Of a DNA stretch of 64,000 nucleotides, positions 1 through 7,467 are shown piece by piece (within the stretch, counting starts at the first letter, position 1; each line of letters opens with the position of its first letter). The position numbers and the translations under genes were made by a program. The notes beneath the pieces were generated by a model. It made no database searches and was not told where the DNA came from. It saw nothing but the letters and a program-made list of their open reading frames with translations. The stretch comes from Bacteroidales bacterium. GTDB lineage: Bacteria > Bacteroidota > Bacteroidia > Bacteroidales > UBA932. The stretch spans positions 18,950 to 82,949 of the forward strand of contig JAGBAO010000005.1 of NCBI GenBank assembly GCA_017938925.1, read 5' to 3'.

Positions 1-803
1 TAGAGAGTTCCGTTGCTGTAGAGTACGCCGCCCCATGTGTTGTGGTTTGCATTGATGGAGCCGCGGAGGGTGATGATCACCTTCTTTGCACGTGGGAACT
101 TTGCCATGAGCTGCTTGCATACGCTCTCGAACTCTGCAGCGTTCACCTCGCCCTGAGTTGCAGTCACATCGAAACCCTCAGGCTTGATTCCGAACACCTT
201 CTCCGCATCTTCCTCGTTTCCGAGAATCACATCGCAGCCGGCAACGAGCTCAGGCATCACTTCAGATGCTGTCTTGCCGTATTTCCAAAGGTTCTTTCTG
301 TAGTTAAGGTCGCATGAAACAGTGACTCCAAGCTTGTTTGCAGCCTTGATGGCCTCAAGACAAACGTCTGCAGCTCCCTGGCTGATTGCCGGAGTGATAC
401 CTGTCCAGTGGAACCAGTCGGCACCTTCGAACACCTTTTCCCAGTCGATCATTCCTTTCTCGATCTGAGCGATGGATGAATGTGCGCGGTCATACACGAC
501 CTTGCTCGGACGTGCCACTGCACCTGTCTCAAGGAAATATATTCCAAGACGGTCGCCTCCGTAGATGCAGTGCTTTGTGCCCACTCCGTAGCTGTGGAGG
601 TCCTTGATGCAGCTTTCTGCAATGTCGTTCTTTGGAAATCTTGTCACGAACTCAGCATCGAGACCGTAGTTCGCGAGTGAAACAGCAACATTGGCCTCTC
701 CGCCACCGAAAGTGACTTCGAACTGTTTTGCCTGTGAAAATCTGAGATATCCGGGTGTTGCAAGGCGGAGCATGATCTCGCCGAATGTAATTACTTTTGC
801 CAT
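1..803 (-). CDS. kdgK: PfkB-family sugar kinase, probably 2-dehydro-3-deoxygluconokinase (3' end outside window)
   Basis: The reading frame starts at the ATG whose complement is at 801-803 and runs open to the window edge, so about 267 N-terminal residues are visible and the C-terminus is missing. The N-terminus MAKVITFGEIMLRL and the glycine-rich FGGGEANVAVSLANYG segment are typical of the ribokinase/PfkB fold. The C-terminal anion-hole motif (GAGD) would lie off the window. It is the last visible gene of a leftward operon with kduI and kduD, whose product is 2-keto-3-deoxygluconate. Phosphorylation of that sugar acid to KDPG is therefore the most likely reaction. Family assignment is firm; substrate rests on the operon. 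Confidence 0.85.
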   Translation of the reverse strand, partial: MAKVITFGEIMLRLATPGYLRFSQAKQFEVTFGGGEANVAVSLANYGLDAEFVTRFPKNDIAESCIKDLHSYGVGTKHCIYGGDRLGIYFLETGAVARPSKVVYDRAHSSIAQIEKGMIDWEKVFEGADWFHWTGITPAISQGAADVCLEAIKAANKLGVTVSCDLNYRKNLWKYGKTASEVMPELVAGCDVILGNEEDAEKVFGIKPEGFDVTATQGEVNAAEFESVCKQLMAKFPRAKKVIITLRGSINANHNTWGGVLYSNGTL

Positions 804-823
804 AATGATTTATTTAGATCCCT

Positions 824-888
824 GGTCAAGCCGGGGATGACTTGTGTCTTGTACTTTTCCGGTCAAGCCGGGGATGACTTGTATCTTG
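824..888. repeat. Tandem 28-bp direct repeat between kduI and the kinase
   Basis: Two copies of a unit beginning GGTCAAGCCGGGGATGACTT (824-851 and 861-888) differ by one base and are spaced 37 bp start to start. They fill most of the 87-bp gap between the kinase start and the kduI stop. The unit resembles short dispersed intergenic elements found in many bacterial genomes. No protein or terminator is evident here. Confidence 0.7.
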
Positions 889-890
889 AA

Positions 891-1832
891 TTATCTCATT
901 TCAGTGTAAGGAATCTCATCCTTGTCACCATAGTTAAGGTTCTCGCCGCCCATTCCCCAGATGAACATATAGTTGCTGGTTCCTGCTGCTGCGTGGATAG
1001 ACCACTCAGGTGAGGTGATTGCCTGCTCGTTCTGCATCCATACGAGTCTCTGCTGCTTAGGCTCTCCCATCAGATGGCAGATCGCGTTGCCTGGCTTTAC
1101 GTTGAAATAGAAGTATGCCTCCATGCGGCGTGTGTGAGTGTGAGCCGGCATTGTGTTCCATACTGAACCTGGGAGAAGCTCTGTGAGACCCATCTGAAGC
1201 TGGTTCGTGCCTCCGTTCTTTACCTTGCCGAGCACTGAACTGACGATGAGCTGGTTCACGATGCGGTCGTTGCTGTCCTCCATCTTTCCGTAGTGTTCAG
1301 ACTTTGCTATGGCATATTTCTTAGGATCTGCGTTCTTGTCAGTAGTGATAAGCTGAGTCACATACTCCTTGTATGCAGGAGTCGAGTTGATGTAGAACTT
1401 CGCAGGATTTGCAGGGTCAACGCTCCTGAAGGTCACTTCCTTCTTTCCGCATCCCACATAGAGTCCTTCCTTGAATGTCATTGGATATTCCTTGCCGTCA
1501 ACGGTGACAATTCCGTCGCCTCCTACATTGATCACTCCAAGCTCGCGTCTGTCGAGGAAATGCTCTGCCTTCAGCTCGTCGAATGTCTCGAGGACGAGGG
1601 TCTTGTTCACAGGCATGACTCCTCCGTAGATGAGACGGTCGTAGAGAGTGTAGGTGAGGTTGATCTCATCAGGAGACATCACCTTCTCCATAAGGAATGA
1701 CCCACGGAGACGCTCTGTGTCATAATGCTTCACATCATCTGGATGGCAAGCAGTCTGGATTGTGTAGTTAAGCTGCGCATTTGCTGCAAACGAGAAGAGG
1801 CAGGTCGCTGCCAGAATAAAAATCTTCTTCAT
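891..1832 (-). CDS. kduI: 5-dehydro-4-deoxy-D-glucuronate isomerase with an N-terminal signal peptide
   Basis: This enzyme converts 5-keto-4-deoxyuronate, released by unsaturated uronyl hydrolases or pectate lyases, to 3-deoxy-D-glycero-2,5-hexodiulosonate, the substrate of KduD. The metal ligands of the cupin fold are visible: H231 and H233 in [11 protein letters not shown]238, and H280 in WSIHAAAG. The protein has 313 residues against 278 for E. coli KduI. About 22 extra residues are at the N-terminus and form a signal peptide ([19 protein letters not shown], likely cut before Q20); the rest are an internal insertion before the active site. A periplasmic location is therefore predicted, which is unusual because the pathway is normally cytoplasmic. 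The gene lies 12 bp after the permease gene in the same operon. Confidence 0.93.
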
Positions 1833-1844
1833 GGTCTGTATGGT

Positions 1845-3254
1845 TTATTTGTTTTCTTCTGTTGTCTGTTTTGAGTTCTTCTGATACTTGATGATGGCAC
1901 GACGGTTCAGGAATATCAGGAACATGGTTATGAGCACGAGAACTGTCACACCGATCCACTTGAGTGAATATGAAAGGTGGAAGATCACCCATGCAAGCGG
2001 GCTCGAAGCGAAGTCGAGAGAGCCGCCTTCGAAGCCCGCTGGAATAGCTACTGCCGCATCTCCGGTTGCCGCATATACGTCATGGGCAGCAAGAGTGAAG
2101 TATGGTGCGAGGTCAGTCACGAAATAAAGACCGATCAGCATCACCACGAGTCCGATGATGAATGTCTTGGGAACATTGCCCTTGGTGATAGGAAGGATCA
2201 TCGGGAACACATAGAACATTCCGGCAAGTGAAGCCAGCGGAAGGAATTCGTTGCCGGGCAGAACCACAGCCAGAACGAGTGTTACAGGAATAAGGAGAAG
2301 TGAAACGACCAGTGTCGTAGGGTGGCCGATCACAAGAGCCGGGCTCATTCCGATGTTGAGACCCTTGGCTCCCTTGAACTTCCTGTTGATGAGCTCACGT
2401 GTTGCGTCAGAGATAGGCTTGAGGCCTTCGATAAAGAGGGAAGTGATGCGCGGGATGAGTTCCATCACGGCTCCCATCTTGATTCCGAGTCCGAGGATAT
2501 AAGGAATCTTCTCCACGATCTCCTTCCAGCTTTCGCATGAGAGGGCTCCGATGATGATTCCGACAAGGATACCGAGGAAGAGAGGCTCTCCGAGAAGGCC
2601 GAATTTCTTCTTCATGCCCTCAGCATCGATGTCGAGCTTGTTCATGCCGGGAATCTTGTCCAGTCCTGCGTTGATCGCCTCTGCGAAAGGCACGAAACCC
2701 TGAACAAAAGGCTGAGGAATCGAGATTCCCTCCATCTTGTCGTAGAATCCCTGGAAACGGTCGGCAGTGTAGTCTGCGAGGATGAGGGTGATGATGTAGC
2801 AGATGATTGCCGCGAAGAATCCCCACCAGATGTTGCCGGAAGCGAAATATACGATTGCTCCGATGAAGGCGAAATGCCAGTAGTTCCAGAGGTCGATATT
2901 CACTGTGCGTGTGGTCTTGGTGATGAGCATCAGGATGTTTACTCCAAGGCATACAGGAATGATGAATGCTCCCACTGATGTGTTATATGCCACAGAAGCT
3001 GCTGCAGGCCAGCCCATGTCGAAAACCTTGAGCTGAAGACCGTAGATCTCTACGACGCGGCTCAGTGCCGGTCCGAGTGTGCTGGTCAGCAGGGAAGTGA
3101 TCACCGAGAGTCCGACGAATCCGACTCCCACAAGAAGACCGCTCTTGAGGGCCTTGCTGAACTTGATGCCTATGCAGACACCGAGGATGGTGAAGATGAT
3201 AGGCATCATCACCGCGGCACCAAGGCCGATGATATAACTGAATACTTGTTCCAT
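1845..3254 (-). CDS. GatC-type (galactitol family) PTS IIC permease, orphan
   Basis: A polytopic membrane protein of 469 residues with about ten hydrophobic segments. It aligns by eye along its length with the EIIC-GAT family (galactitol GatC/SgcC): the start MEQVFSYIIGLGAAVMMPI, the WNYWH segment near residue 124, the conserved KFGLLGEP near 219 and the IGHPT segment near 310. No phosphorylatable IIA or IIB domain is fused, and none is encoded in the visible part of the operon. Bacteroidales usually lack a sugar PTS. It sits between the DUF4861 lipoprotein gene (17 bp upstream) and kduI (12 bp downstream). A role as a PTS-independent transporter for an unsaturated-uronate derivative is inferred. 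IIA/IIB genes beyond the window edge cannot be excluded. Confidence 0.85.
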   Translation of the reverse strand: MEQVFSYIIGLGAAVMMPIIFTILGVCIGIKFSKALKSGLLVGVGFVGLSVITSLLTSTLGPALSRVVEIYGLQLKVFDMGWPAAASVAYNTSVGAFIIPVCLGVNILMLITKTTRTVNIDLWNYWHFAFIGAIVYFASGNIWWGFFAAIICYIITLILADYTADRFQGFYDKMEGISIPQPFVQGFVPFAEAINAGLDKIPGMNKLDIDAEGMKKKFGLLGEPLFLGILVGIIIGALSCESWKEIVEKIPYILGLGIKMGAVMELIPRITSLFIEGLKPISDATRELINRKFKGAKGLNIGMSPALVIGHPTTLVVSLLLIPVTLVLAVVLPGNEFLPLASLAGMFYVFPMILPITKGNVPKTFIIGLVVMLIGLYFVTDLAPYFTLAAHDVYAATGDAAVAIPAGFEGGSLDFASSPLAWVIFHLSYSLKWIGVTVLVLITMFLIFLNRRAIIKYQKNSKQTTEENK

Positions 3255-3271
3255 ATTGGTTGTTTAGTTGT

Positions 3272-4522
3272 CTATTTTACAGTAATTATAAGTGGTTCCT
3301 TGATCTGAGCGGCGAACTTTTCCAGATATCCTGTCCACTGCCCATATGTCTTCATATCTGAGTGGTCCCAGCCGAAGCCCCAGTAATAGGTGAATTCCTC
3401 GCCCGGTTCATAGTCTGTGCAGGCCAGCACATGGCCCGGAGCTCCACCCCTTTCTTCTTTCATCTCCTTTTCGGAGTGGAAGACAGTCTTCATCTGCTTC
3501 ATTGCTTCCGGATACACATGGCCGACGAAATGGGTTCCGTTGTCAATATCCGGGTTACGCTTGTCGAAATTGATGGAAGGAGCAGGATAGGCTATATATC
3601 CTTTCTGAATGTCTGTTATTTCCTTCCCGTCTTTGTCTCTCAGCACGATTCCGGCTACAAGTTCCCTTGTCTGGCTCAGATTCTCATATACGACGGTAGT
3701 GCGGTTAAGGTAAGAACCCGCATCGAGCGTGATGAGCCTTGTCTCGACGACTTCCGCATCCCGACCGATGGTGACAGGAGCGAATGTAAGCCTGAATGAC
3801 ATTCTGAGAGGGCCGTTATCGAGGATCTCATACTCTTTATAGCACCATGGGTATATGATCTCTTCATCCACCAGTGCTGTCACGCCTGCTCCCAGATTCG
3901 GACCCACTGCGTAGGCGTCCATGCCATATCCATGGTCAACATGGAAGCTCATGGAGTCTATCAGATAGTCTTCTGCTGCTTGTGGGTCACTCTGTTTCAG
4001 CTCGTTATATATGCTTCGGTTTCTTTCTCCCGTATTAAGCTCATAGAACTTTCCTATCACCGGCAGATCTGTTCCTCTCTTGGCAAAAAGGTCATATCCG
4101 AATCCTCTTTCTCCCTTAGCCTGAAGTGCAGGACCATAGGCCCTGAATCCTACGAGGTCATTTTCCCATGCGAAGTCATCAAGTCTTTCAGGGTAATGTC
4201 TTCCGCATGCGTAGGTCTGGTATTCAGAAGGCTGCCCTTTAGTTATCTTGTATGTACCGTTTTCTCCCGCCTTCATTTCCACCTGGAAGATCACCTTTGC
4301 ATCGCTGGTGATCTGGTATGGCTGCTCCTCTCCGGCCTCGTTTCTGATGATGAAGCTTTCACCGTCCTTAAGGTCCAGTGCCCCGGATATCTGTTCGGAG
4401 CACAGTTCCACCATTTCCGGGAGCCTGTCCGAGTCCGTTCCGTTAGTCACAGTGACAGTGACCGCAGGACAGCAGGAGGCGAGAATCAATACAGGCAGAA
4501 TCAGTAGTGCAATTTTTTTCAT
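3272..4522 (-). CDS. DUF4861 family lipoprotein
   Basis: A 416-residue protein when started at the ATG complementary to 4520-4522, which gives a clean lipoprotein signal MKKIALLILPVLILASC with the lipidated cysteine at residue 17. A start 12 codons earlier would put charged residues before the signal and is less likely. The body (for example YACGRHYPERLDDFAWENDLVGFR, given here only as its first residues YACGRHYPERLDDFAW) is typical of DUF4861, a family found in polysaccharide lyase and uronate gene clusters of Bacteroidota, with no enzyme activity that I can name. Its position between kduD and the permease suggests a periplasmic role in uronic-acid processing or binding. Confidence 0.8.
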   Translation of the reverse strand: MKKIALLILPVLILASCCPAVTVTVTNGTDSDRLPEMVELCSEQISGALDLKDGESFIIRNEAGEEQPYQITSDAKVIFQVEMKAGENGTYKITKGQPSEYQTYACGRHYPERLDDFAWENDLVGFRAYGPALQAKGERGFGYDLFAKRGTDLPVIGKFYELNTGERNRSIYNELKQSDPQAAEDYLIDSMSFHVDHGYGMDAYAVGPNLGAGVTALVDEEIIYPWCYKEYEILDNGPLRMSFRLTFAPVTIGRDAEVVETRLITLDAGSYLNRTTVVYENLSQTRELVAGIVLRDKDGKEITDIQKGYIAYPAPSINFDKRNPDIDNGTHFVGHVYPEAMKQMKTVFHSEKEMKEERGGAPGHVLACTDYEPGEEFTYYWGFGWDHSDMKTYGQWTGYLEKFAAQIKEPLIITVK

Positions 4523-4541
4523 TTTTTTTGCCTTTACATAA

Positions 4542-4576
4542 ATTGAAGATAGAGTCACCTTGACCCTATCTTCAAT
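4542..4576. promoter_or_regulatory. 35-nt near-perfect palindrome between kduD and the DUF4861 gene
   Basis: ATTGAAGATAG (4542-4552) and CTATCTTCAAT (4566-4576) pair perfectly. After one A/C mismatch, GTCA and TGAC continue the stem around a 3-nt centre. It lies in the 63-bp gap inside the operon. There is no U-run on the leftward transcript, so it is not a classic terminator. It may be an mRNA processing or stabilising hairpin, or an operator for an internal promoter. Confidence 0.55.
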
Positions 4577-4585
4577 ATTATAAAA

Positions 4586-5380
4586 TTACTTAGGCTGCTT
4601 GCCGATGTATGCGAGGATACCTCCGTCCACATAAAGCACGTGTCCGTTCACAAAATCCGAAGCATTTGAAGCGAGGAACACGACAGGTCCCATAAGGTCC
4701 TCAGGAGTGCCCCAACGCTCTGCAGGAGTCTTTGCAACGATGAATGAATCGAACGGATGGCGGCTGCCGTCTGCCTGACGCTCACGAAGAGGAGCTGTCT
4801 GTGGAGTCGCGATATATCCCGGTCCTATGCCGTTGCACTGGATGTTGTACTGGCCATACTCAGAAGCGATGTTTCTGGTGAGCATCTTCAGACCGCCCTT
4901 GGCAGCAGCGTACGCAGACACGGTCTCACGTCCGAGTTCAGACATCATCGAGCAGATGTTGATGATCTTTCCTGCCTTCTTCTCCATCATTCCAGGGAGG
5001 ACTGCCTTCGCGCAGATGTAAGGAGCAACGAGGTCGATGTCAACCACCTGGCGGAACTCCTCGGCAGCCATTTCGTGCATCGGGATACGCTTGATGATAC
5101 CAGCATTGTTAACGAGTATATCAACCGGACCGAGAGTTGCGGCGATATCAGCAACCATTGCCTTCACACCTTCTTCATCAGTAGCGTCGCAGATGTATCC
5201 TTTTGCATCTATACCGAGCTTGGCGTACTCCTCGAGAGCCTTGTCCATATTTGCCTGTGTGCGACAGTTGAAAGCGATCTTTGCACCAGCCTCAGCGAGA
5301 GCCTGTGCCATTGCGAATCCGATTCCGTAAGCGGCGCCCGTAACGAGAGCGACCTTGCCTTCAAGAGAAAAATTTACCAT
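4586..5380 (-). CDS. kduD: 2-dehydro-3-deoxy-D-gluconate 5-dehydrogenase (short-chain dehydrogenase)
   Basis: KduD reduces 3-deoxy-D-glycero-2,5-hexodiulosonate to 2-keto-3-deoxygluconate in the cytoplasm. The Rossmann motif TGAAYGIGFAMA is near residues 14-25, the NNAG motif is at about residue 90, and the catalytic Ser-Tyr-x3-Lys appears as SAYAAAKGG. The chosen start (complement of 5378-5380) gives MVNFSLEGKVALVTG and 264 residues, as usual for SDRs. An upstream in-frame ATG at 5431 falls inside the promoter -7 box and is rejected. It is the first gene of the leftward uronate operon. Confidence 0.92.
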   Translation of the reverse strand: MVNFSLEGKVALVTGAAYGIGFAMAQALAEAGAKIAFNCRTQANMDKALEEYAKLGIDAKGYICDATDEEGVKAMVADIAATLGPVDILVNNAGIIKRIPMHEMAAEEFRQVVDIDLVAPYICAKAVLPGMMEKKAGKIINICSMMSELGRETVSAYAAAKGGLKMLTRNIASEYGQYNIQCNGIGPGYIATPQTAPLRERQADGSRHPFDSFIVAKTPAERWGTPEDLMGPVVFLASNASDFVNGHVLYVDGGILAYIGKQPK

Positions 5381-5550: not shown

Positions 5551-7467
5551 ATGAAGAAGTTTACATTACCAAAGGATGGAGGCTTGATTGAGGAGGGACT
5601 TCCGCTCGGAATCAAGCACACTTATGAAAGAATCCCAGTCCATATCTATGAGGATGAGGAACAGGCAAGTGAAAGACTTGCTGAAAAGATAGCTGCTTCA
5701 ATCAATGCGGCGGAAGGTGTGTTCCGTCTGGGACTTACCACCGGTTCATCTCCGGTAGCTCTGTACAGAAGTCTTGTTCGTCGTCATGAAGCTGGTGAGA
5801 TATCTTTCAGAAATGTGGAGATCTTCAGTATAGATGAATATTATCCTGCACCGGAGGATTCCCGCAGCCGTAATAGAAGACTTTATGAGGAACTTGTGTC
5901 TAAAGTGGACATCAAGCCGGAAAATGTACACGTTCCGAAGCTTACCAGGACCTTGGATGGAATGGAAGTTTCGGAATTTTGTCGTAAATACGACCAGATG
6001 GCCCGCGGTCTGGACCTTCTCATCATGGGTATGGGAGAAAAGGGACAGGTCGGCTTCAATGAGGCCGGTGCATCCGAGCTTAGCCGCACCAGAACAGTTC
6101 TTCTTCCTTATGGCTCAAGAAAGCGTCAGTCCAGAAACTTCTCAGGTAATGTTGAGGCGACACCGCACACAGCAATTGCGATGGGTATCTCTACAATGAT
6201 GAGTGCCAAGAAGATACATCTTATCGCATGGGGTGAGGACAAGGCCGAGGCGGTCAAGAGAGTCTCCGAGGACAAGGCGGATCCGTCATGGGCTGCATCT
6301 CTTCTTCAGTCACATGACAACATCTCGATGTATGTGGATGAGAACTCAGCTTCTCTTTTGACCAGAAACGTTGCTCCATGGCTTGTCGGCCCGTGCGAGT
6401 GGACTCCGAAGTTCATCCGTAAGGCTGTAGTCTGGCTTTGCGAGCAGGTGCATAAGCCTATTCTCAAACTTACTCAGGGCGATTATCTCTCGAACGGTCT
6501 TGGAGAACTTCTTGAACTTCACGGTCCGTATGACCAGATCAATATCAATGTGTTCAACGACTTTCAGCATACCATTTCCGGATGGCCTGGTGGAAAGCCT
6601 AACGCTGACGACAGCACGAGGCCGGTTCCTTCTTCACCGTTCCCTAAGAGGGTGGTGATCTTCTCGCCTCATCCGGATGACGATGTGATTTCGATGGGAG
6701 GAACCTTCATCCGTCTTGCAGAGCAGGGACACGATGTTCATGTGGCATATGAGACTTCAGGTAATGTGGCCGTCCACGATGATGTTGTGCTCCAGCATAT
6801 GGATGCTGCCCGTGAACTCGGTTTCGGTGACAGATTCGAGGAGGTGCGCCAGATCATAGCATCAAAGAAGCCGGGTGAGCCTGAGCCGCGTGCTCTTCTC
6901 AATCTCAAGGGAGCGATCAGACGTGCCGAGGCAAAGAGTGCGGTACGTTCGTTCGGACTCAACGACCAGACCAACACGCACTTCCTCAATCTTCCTTTCT
7001 ATGAGACAGGAGGAATCAAGAAAGGGGAGAGGTCTCAGGCTGATATCGACATAATCAAGGATCTTCTTCAGAAGGTTCAGCCGCATCAGATCTACCTTGC
7101 CGGCGACCTCGCTGACCCTCATGGAACCCACAGGGTATGTACTGAGGCTGTCCTTGAGGCTTTGAACCAGCTTGAAGGTGAGGCATGGCTCAAGGAATGT
7201 CATGTATGGCTTTATCGCGGTGCATGGATGGAGTGGGAACTCGGAAAGGTGGATATGGCGGTTCCGCTCAGCCCGGATGAGGTGATCAAGAAGCGTCACG
7301 CCATCTATCGTCACCTTTCTCAGAAGGACATCGTGCCGTTCCCTGGAGAGGACCCACGCGAGTTCTGGCAGAGGGCGGAGGAGAGGACTCAGAACACTGC
7401 CCGTCTCTACAATGAACTCGGAATGGCTGAGTATCAGGCTATCGAGGTCTTCGTGAGACTCTTTTAG
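5551..7467 (+). CDS. NagB-like domain fused to a PIG-L/LmbE deacetylase domain
   Basis: A 638-residue two-domain protein. Residues about 30-290 are a glucosamine-6-phosphate deaminase/isomerase fold (LGLTTGSSP phosphate loop, FSIDEYYP). Residues about 365-600 are a PIG-L type metal-dependent N-deacetylase, with the zinc motif PHPDDD (H374, D376, D377) and a distal DPHGTHR histidine. Annotation pipelines call such Bacteroidales proteins glucosamine-6-phosphate deaminase. In the NagB half, however, the canonical catalytic segment GxGxDGHxxFNEP reads GMGEKGQVGFNEAG (162-173), so the usual aspartate and histidine are K164 and Q166. The deaminase half may be altered or regulatory. The domain pair suggests amino-sugar deacetylation coupled to deamination. 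It is followed 27 bp later by a phosphohexomutase gene. Confidence 0.85.
   Translation: MKKFTLPKDGGLIEEGLPLGIKHTYERIPVHIYEDEEQASERLAEKIAASINAAEGVFRLGLTTGSSPVALYRSLVRRHEAGEISFRNVEIFSIDEYYPAPEDSRSRNRRLYEELVSKVDIKPENVHVPKLTRTLDGMEVSEFCRKYDQMARGLDLLIMGMGEKGQVGFNEAGASELSRTRTVLLPYGSRKRQSRNFSGNVEATPHTAIAMGISTMMSAKKIHLIAWGEDKAEAVKRVSEDKADPSWAASLLQSHDNISMYVDENSASLLTRNVAPWLVGPCEWTPKFIRKAVVWLCEQVHKPILKLTQGDYLSNGLGELLELHGPYDQININVFNDFQHTISGWPGGKPNADDSTRPVPSSPFPKRVVIFSPHPDDDVISMGGTFIRLAEQGHDVHVAYETSGNVAVHDDVVLQHMDAARELGFGDRFEEVRQIIASKKPGEPEPRALLNLKGAIRRAEAKSAVRSFGLNDQTNTHFLNLPFYETGGIKKGERSQADIDIIKDLLQKVQPHQIYLAGDLADPHGTHRVCTEAVLEALNQLEGEAWLKECHVWLYRGAWMEWELGKVDMAVPLSPDEVIKKRHAIYRHLSQKDIVPFPGEDPREFWQRAEERTQNTARLYNELGMAEYQAIEVFVRLF

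Follow-up and report, generated by a model that had tools for sequence, protein, structure and literature searches.

A uronate operon with a GatC-type permease

The stretch of DNA that we analysed, called the window throughout, comprises 64,000 nt of contig C33 of a 2.67-Mb Bacteroidales genome. From position 5380, its minus strand carries an operon that encodes a KduD-like reductase, a DUF4861 protein, a GatC-type permease, the isomerase KduI and a PfkB-family kinase, followed outside the window by an aldolase for 2-keto-3-deoxy-6-phosphogluconate (KDPG). A sequence-only reading of this DNA had named the first five genes and proposed that an unsaturated uronate released by lyases is isomerized in the periplasm, imported by a permease like those of the phosphotransferase system (PTS), reduced to 2-keto-3-deoxygluconate (KDG) and phosphorylated. 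All five genes are present on the minus strand, and the operon is larger than had been claimed, with the aldolase as a further member.

The first gene encodes a short-chain dehydrogenase/reductase (SDR) of 264 amino acids (4586..5380; PF13561/PF00106) that has no export signal. It is followed by a 416-amino-acid lipoprotein of the DUF4861 or BT_3233 family (3272..4522; PF16153, E 5.5e-82; NF058564), the permease, which belongs to the EIIC-GAT type of PTS proteins (1845..3254; PF03611, E 5e-78), and KduI, which carries a signal peptide (891..1832; NF002091, 367.7 bits against a cut-off of 250). The KdgK-like kinase (PF00294, E 6.1e-24) occupies positions 1..803 (open reading frame (ORF) 3-803), with its 3′ part beyond the window; in the contig it is complete, with 346 amino acids (L002:18712-19752). 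The aldolase gene (L002:18035-18700; NF005499, 378.5 bits, cut-off 275) lies 11 nt downstream of the kinase gene, and the gaps between genes, in operon order, are 63, 17, 12, 87 and 11 nt.

KduI is found with the permease and carries an export signal

Signal peptides were assessed by rule and by eye rather than with a trained predictor. By eye, the N terminus of the window KduI is a type I signal peptide with a cleavage site. The protein matches solved KduI structures, of which the closest is Protein Data Bank (PDB) entry 9kd0 (E 5.8e-137), itself very like the KduI copies of Bacteroides. The alignment pairs residue 20 of the window protein with residue 2 of the chain, and that construct thus begins right after the signal. 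Four residues that we take to be the expected metal ligands of KduI (H231, H233, E238 and H280) are kept in all 58 permease-linked KduI rows.

In a scan of a genome collection, at least 562 stretches encoded relatives of the permease, and 80 loci were kept for counts. These include Bacteroides, Phocaeicola, Mediterranea, Paraprevotella, Barnesiella, Muribaculaceae and other Bacteroidales. KduI was adjacent to the permease in 66 of the 80 loci, in the same operon in 8 and absent in 6; in 4 of these 6, no more than 1.7 kb separates the permease from the contig end. In a sample of genomes of the order, KduI accompanied the permease in all nine permease genomes other than that of the window. Pairing in 74/80 loci and 9/9 genomes is more than would be expected by chance. 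The permease family is not universal: a phylum-wide set of 296 genomes gave 2 with a match, and the 393 genomes of the order gave 12, 2 of the 12 being weak. The permease and KduI genes of two contigs titled Paenibacillus and Clostridiales (L036 and L082) cluster with those of Muribaculaceae, and these record names are probably wrong. Heminiphilus faecis and genome G320, which have an identical KduI, may be one species.

As a control, KduI genes of the order sample were taken whether or not a permease was present. A match to the KduI/IolB family occurred in 102 of the 393 genomes. From 114 rows, we left out 5 with E under 1e-70, which were taken for IolB, the copy of the window genome, a fragment in G526 and the second piece of G425:C39; of the 106 stretches taken, 104 had a KduI match (all but L159 and L230). 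Nine of these 104 KduI genes lie beside a permease and 95 elsewhere. Under our first rule, an export signal was present in 9/9 KduI proteins encoded beside the permease, compared with 1/95 elsewhere, and we take this one (L188) to be spurious, arising from a far-upstream start. Under a strict rule, the counts were 8/9 and 0/95, and the missed copy (L226) has a clear signal by eye. Fisher's test gives p 4e-13 for the association on the assumption of independent rows, which does not hold here. Among the permease loci of the wider scan, the strict rule found a signal in 65 of 74 KduI proteins, and the 9 misses are clear signal peptides by eye. The permease-linked copies that we read have typical n-, h- and c-regions. 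A loose rule was unspecific (KduD 23/36, KdgK 20/28), and only adjacency counts were taken from that run; the strict rule misses lipoproteins (DUF4861 8/18), so DUF4861 was judged by eye.

The usual KduI of the order sample is short and signal-less, and in most loci its gene is directly followed by kduD and often then by DUF4861. The sample holds two other genomes of the window's own genus (G303 and G661), and both have this usual form, and at one same-genus locus (L174) KduI is encoded beside mannitol dehydrogenase, altronate dehydratase and glycoside hydrolase (GH) family GH28 genes. The exported KduI is the only one found in 8 of the 10 permease genomes of the order sample, which are 86-99% complete, and in 6 of 13 named permease genomes. 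The other seven named genomes have two kinds of KduI, one exported and linked to the permease, the other signal-less and encoded next to KduD and DUF4861. P. vulgatus ATCC 8482 and B. xylanisolvens XB1A each hold such a second, signal-less copy. Thus, the export signal of KduI tracks the permease, which supports the proposed isomerization in the periplasm.

The later enzymes are predicted to be cytosolic

Whereas KduI is exported, the enzymes of the later steps almost all lack export signals. In the permease loci, the strict rule found signals in 2/36 KduD, 0/28 KdgK and 0/23 KdgA proteins; of the two KduD positives, one is an ORF whose beginning is an exported protein encoded upstream, and the second was judged by eye to be false. 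Most KduD homologues begin at or near MVNFSLEGK. Reduction and phosphorylation inside the cell, as had been proposed, agree with these counts. Because the exported KduI is often the sole KduI and the enzymes that follow it are signal-less, the KduI product must cross inward. The sequence evidence therefore supports the division of steps in which the sugar would be isomerized outside, imported, and reduced and phosphorylated inside.

The assignments of the individual enzymes vary in precision. The reductase gene is there as the sequence-only reading had it, but the name kduD is loose, as the protein fell short of the kduD equivalog TIGR01832 (226.8, cut-off 338.85) and passed the 'gluconate 5-dehydrogenase' model NF005488 (478.7, cut-off 369). 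The kinase is a PfkB protein by Pfam and lies below the cut-offs of the KDG-kinase equivalogs NF041332 (218.6 against 440) and NF052444 (44.7 against 400). The aldolase is a KDPG aldolase (KdgA/Eda), being over the cut-off of the equivalog NF005499. In the fetched stretches, which vary in length, KduD at more than 60% identity was found in 36 of the 80 loci, KdgK in 28 and DUF4861 in 18.

Two neighbouring features were also observed. An NfnAB-like pair, comprising FAD/NAD-binding and glutamate-synthase-like subunits (L002:15781-18032), starts 2 nt past kdgA; it is possibly co-transcribed with the operon and perhaps ties the pathway to the supply of NAD(P)H. Divergent from the operon, at window positions 5551-7467, lies a gene whose product joins a glucosamine-6-phosphate deaminase-like protein to a deacetylase domain of PIG-L type (NF002557).

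The permease lacks PTS partners

The permease has a strong EIIC-GAT domain (PF03611, 263.3 bits, cut-off 24.2) and matches the GatC structure 9u82 (E 1.1e-76), but it is under the cut-off of the galactitol IIC model TIGR00827 (385.4 against 542.2). Searches for EIIB (PF02302), EIIA (PF00359) and HPr (PF00381) were negative in each of the 16 permease genomes (enzyme I was not searched for), whereas the same searches were positive in 6, 7 and 7 of 14 control genomes, respectively. Without EIIA, EIIB and HPr, transport would not phosphorylate the sugar. We therefore rejected PTS coupling; of the 'PTS-like permease' in the earlier proposal, membership of the GatC-type family stands and PTS function does not.

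The same family was found on 452 plasmid records with a permease match; among the matches listed, we read the neighbourhoods of eight. In six of these records, GatC relatives at 33-45% identity to the permease all have EIIA and EIIB neighbours. A plasmid of Lactobacillus intestinalis encodes a permease that is 55% identical, in a cluster (L242:5134-9016) with an IclR regulator, kduD, a kinase and an aldolase; the annotation of this stretch shows no PTS part. No KduI was found on this 319-kb plasmid (the chromosome was not searched). The reductase and kinase of the cluster are 40% and 21% identical to those of the window, so the shared gene set probably does not reflect inheritance in one piece. 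In a tree of the permeases, the L. intestinalis copy joins the Bacteroidales clade (100/99); the branching order among the PTS rows is unsure because of very long branches. Nine residues separate 37 Bacteroidales rows from 7 PTS-linked GatC proteins, among them residue 342 (window numbering), which is Ser instead of the Asp of 6/7 PTS-linked rows, and the L. intestinalis copy has all nine. It is possible that the plasmid cluster is a scavenger of the diketo acid made by KduI.

Source of the sugar and the DUF4861 lipoprotein

A GH105-type gene stands divergently adjacent to the permease gene in 20 of the 80 loci, including that of B. xylanisolvens XB1A (L053), in which it is followed by CE8-like and two-domain esterase genes; the B. 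faecis copy of the hydrolase belongs to the GH88 family by Pfam. According to the part of PMC4769552 covered, the same set with two PL1 genes makes up the pectin-induced polysaccharide utilization locus (PUL) 49 of B. xylanisolvens XB1A, and a mutant in its susC shows poor growth with citrus pectin. That account of PUL 49 mentions neither the permease nor KduI, and the words 'isomerase', 'permease' and 'PTS' occur nowhere in its main text. The window genome has six places with GH88/GH105-family matches, two of them strong.

The DUF4861 protein of the operon is a member of the BT_3233 family equivalog (NF058564, 362 bits, over the cut-off of 320) and by its N terminus, judged by eye, a lipoprotein. 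An export signal was seen by eye in all 17 aligned members, which share many invariant residues, and in 34 of 37 relatives from loci without the permease. Beyond the DUF4861 family, remote-homology searches in Pfam returned two hits, both weak and each limited to a single one of the 17 members, and comparison with the PDB gave weak matches to designed proteins only. Our guess is that DUF4861 may be an enzyme that acts before KduI, for example in ring opening.

Evolution of the exported KduI

A tree of KduI was built from 175 sequences, reduced to 148 by removing near-copies of more than 95% identity. A supported group on this tree unites 56 permease-linked rows and also holds one signal-less copy (L017). 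Two further permease-linked rows, from one family, stand apart, and a single clade for all permease-linked KduI proteins was not rejected (p-AU 0.375). The signal-less copy is a second KduI (L017:14158-17124), 79% identical to that of the window and about 5 kb from the permease gene, where it heads a different operon that also contains SDR genes and genes judged by eye to be UxuA-like. This copy is likely to be a reversal, that is, a return to the cytosol. As it is nested among exported copies and belongs to another operon, the signal tracks the permease operon.

A proposed route for unsaturated uronates

We consider it likely that the operon encodes a complete periplasm-to-cytosol route for an unsaturated uronate. 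Lyases and GH105/GH88 hydrolases would release the unsaturated uronate in the periplasm, where its ring-opened form is 5-keto-4-deoxyuronate (DKI); DUF4861, being exported, might act ahead of KduI at a step such as this ring opening. Exported KduI would convert DKI into 2,5-diketo-3-deoxygluconate (DKII) in the periplasm, and the GatC-type permease, acting independently of the PTS as a secondary carrier or facilitator, would bring DKII across the inner membrane. In the cytosol, KduD would reduce DKII to KDG, the PfkB kinase would phosphorylate KDG to KDPG, and KdgA would cleave KDPG to pyruvate and glyceraldehyde 3-phosphate. The evidence for this route is in the sequences: the gene content, the signal of KduI and its near-absence from the later enzymes, the linkage of KduI and permease, and the lack of EIIA, EIIB and HPr. 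From these we infer the enzyme activities, DKII as the cargo and the coupling ion.

Several observations weigh against this route, the last of them by pointing to other importers. At L045 and L069, the permease has about 10 kb of room downstream with no KduI there; for L045, an exported KduI lies elsewhere in the genome (L262), and at that P. faecium locus it is apart from the permease. The association has arisen independently few times: on the KduI tree, its label changes three times, giving only two independent pairs on supported branches (three on all), too few for significance, so no more than two or three events underlie the strong correlation. Relatives of a major facilitator superfamily (MFS) protein of B. 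faecis occur in 31/80 permease loci, a strong ExuT-like MFS match is present in 8/10 permease genomes, with the copy of the window genome on another contig (C5), and weak matches to KdgT were found in some permease genomes.

The main rival importer is the ExuT-like MFS carrier. KduI would still be periplasmic, but its product (or DKI) would enter through the MFS protein, and the permease would carry another compound from the same polymer. In B. faecis, the MFS gene lies downstream of KduI, as this alternative would have it. However, the operon of the window contains no ExuT-like MFS gene, genome G475 has no match and G230 one of 33 bits although both have the permease and an exported KduI, and the L. 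intestinalis cluster combines permease, kduD, kinase and aldolase with no MFS gene annotated in the stretch. We regard entry through the MFS carrier as unlikely.

KdgT of Dickeya and Escherichia coli imports KDG and its diketo precursors. This carrier (PF03812) would thus import the same or similar compounds, but it is of a different protein family from the permease, and the window genome has no match. Seven of the 16 permease genomes have matches, all weak and one over the cut-off, and we rejected KdgT as the importer.

A second alternative is that exported KduI acts on saturated uronates, converting galacturonate to tagaturonate, and that the permease imports the keto-uronate. The KduI of E. 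coli has a side activity on galacturonate and glucuronate, which is a point in its favour. The operon, however, has the reductase, kinase and aldolase of the path from DKII through KDG to KDPG and no uxaB-, uxaC- or uxuA-like gene, and its KduI is well above the equivalog cut-off, making this alternative very improbable. We think it very improbable that the N-terminal extension of KduI is not a working signal, or that KduI goes on to the surface or to vesicles, so that isomerization would not be periplasmic: the literature covered holds no data on KduI localization, but the permease-linked copies have the regions typical of signal peptides, the solved KduI 9kd0 starts after the signal, and the signal-less L017 copy heads a different operon. 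That the permease is a true PTS component, with EIIA, EIIB and HPr encoded elsewhere and the sugar entering phosphorylated, deserves almost no credence despite the strong EIIC-GAT match, given the negative partner searches, the missed galactitol IIC cut-off and the sugar kinase of the operon, which would be superfluous.

Returning to the route through the permease, a wider scenario can be drawn up around it, which we offer as a tentative possibility. One clade of GatC proteins would have left the PTS and become carriers of DKII in gut Bacteroidales and Lactobacillus, with KduI moving to the periplasm alongside in Bacteroidales. DKII would be transported rather than the aldehyde DKI, the Lactobacillus copy would take DKII from neighbours, and DUF4861 would be a periplasmic ring opener replacing KdgF.

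Relation to known systems

The enzymes and intermediates (DKI, DKII, KDG and KDPG) are those of the KduI-KduD or KduI-DhuD pathway, as described for Dickeya and for the type E cluster of Bacteroidota in the part of PMC12838403 covered. In that pathway, isomerization and reduction are treated as neighbouring steps that follow uptake, whereas here an exported KduI would act before, and KduD after, passage through the membrane. The main text of PMC12838403, which treats kduI-dhuD clusters of Bacteroidota, uses 'periplasm' once, for oligomer uptake in Dickeya, and does not contain 'signal peptide'. According to the part of PMC3878776 covered, some members of the KdgR regulon, not named there, are periplasmic or extracellular.

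The permease shares its membrane protein family (PF03611) with GatC of the galactitol PTS (PTS-Gat, 9u82). Unlike that GatC, it was found with no EIIA, EIIB or HPr, its operon partners are uronate enzymes, and it has Ser342 and eight further separating residues. Breakdown to monosaccharides in the periplasm followed by import across the inner membrane has likewise been described for the heparan sulfate PUL, with the transporter BT4653 and the kinase BT4654 (PMC9067506). There, BT4653 is a putative hexose transporter for desulfated monosaccharides, and the part of the paper covered does not deal specifically with the uronate product or with isomerization before import. In the parts of the open-licence literature searched, neither an exported KduI nor such a permease acting as a uronate carrier is described, and a prior description elsewhere is possible. 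The operon would thus represent a known pathway in an arrangement for which we found no description, combining an exported KduI with a PTS-less GatC permease.

Many gut Bacteroidales appear to isomerize a pectin-derived sugar outside the inner membrane and then import it by a permease that lacks the partner proteins usual for its family, which would fill a missing uptake step and move to the periplasm a step known from the cytosol. The permease is a precise candidate that can be deleted in the laboratory species P. vulgatus, B. xylanisolvens and B. faecis, and it would exemplify the conversion of a PTS membrane subunit into a carrier that works alone. With this arrangement, the diketo sugar acid DKII would also arise outside the inner membrane and might become available to other bacteria.

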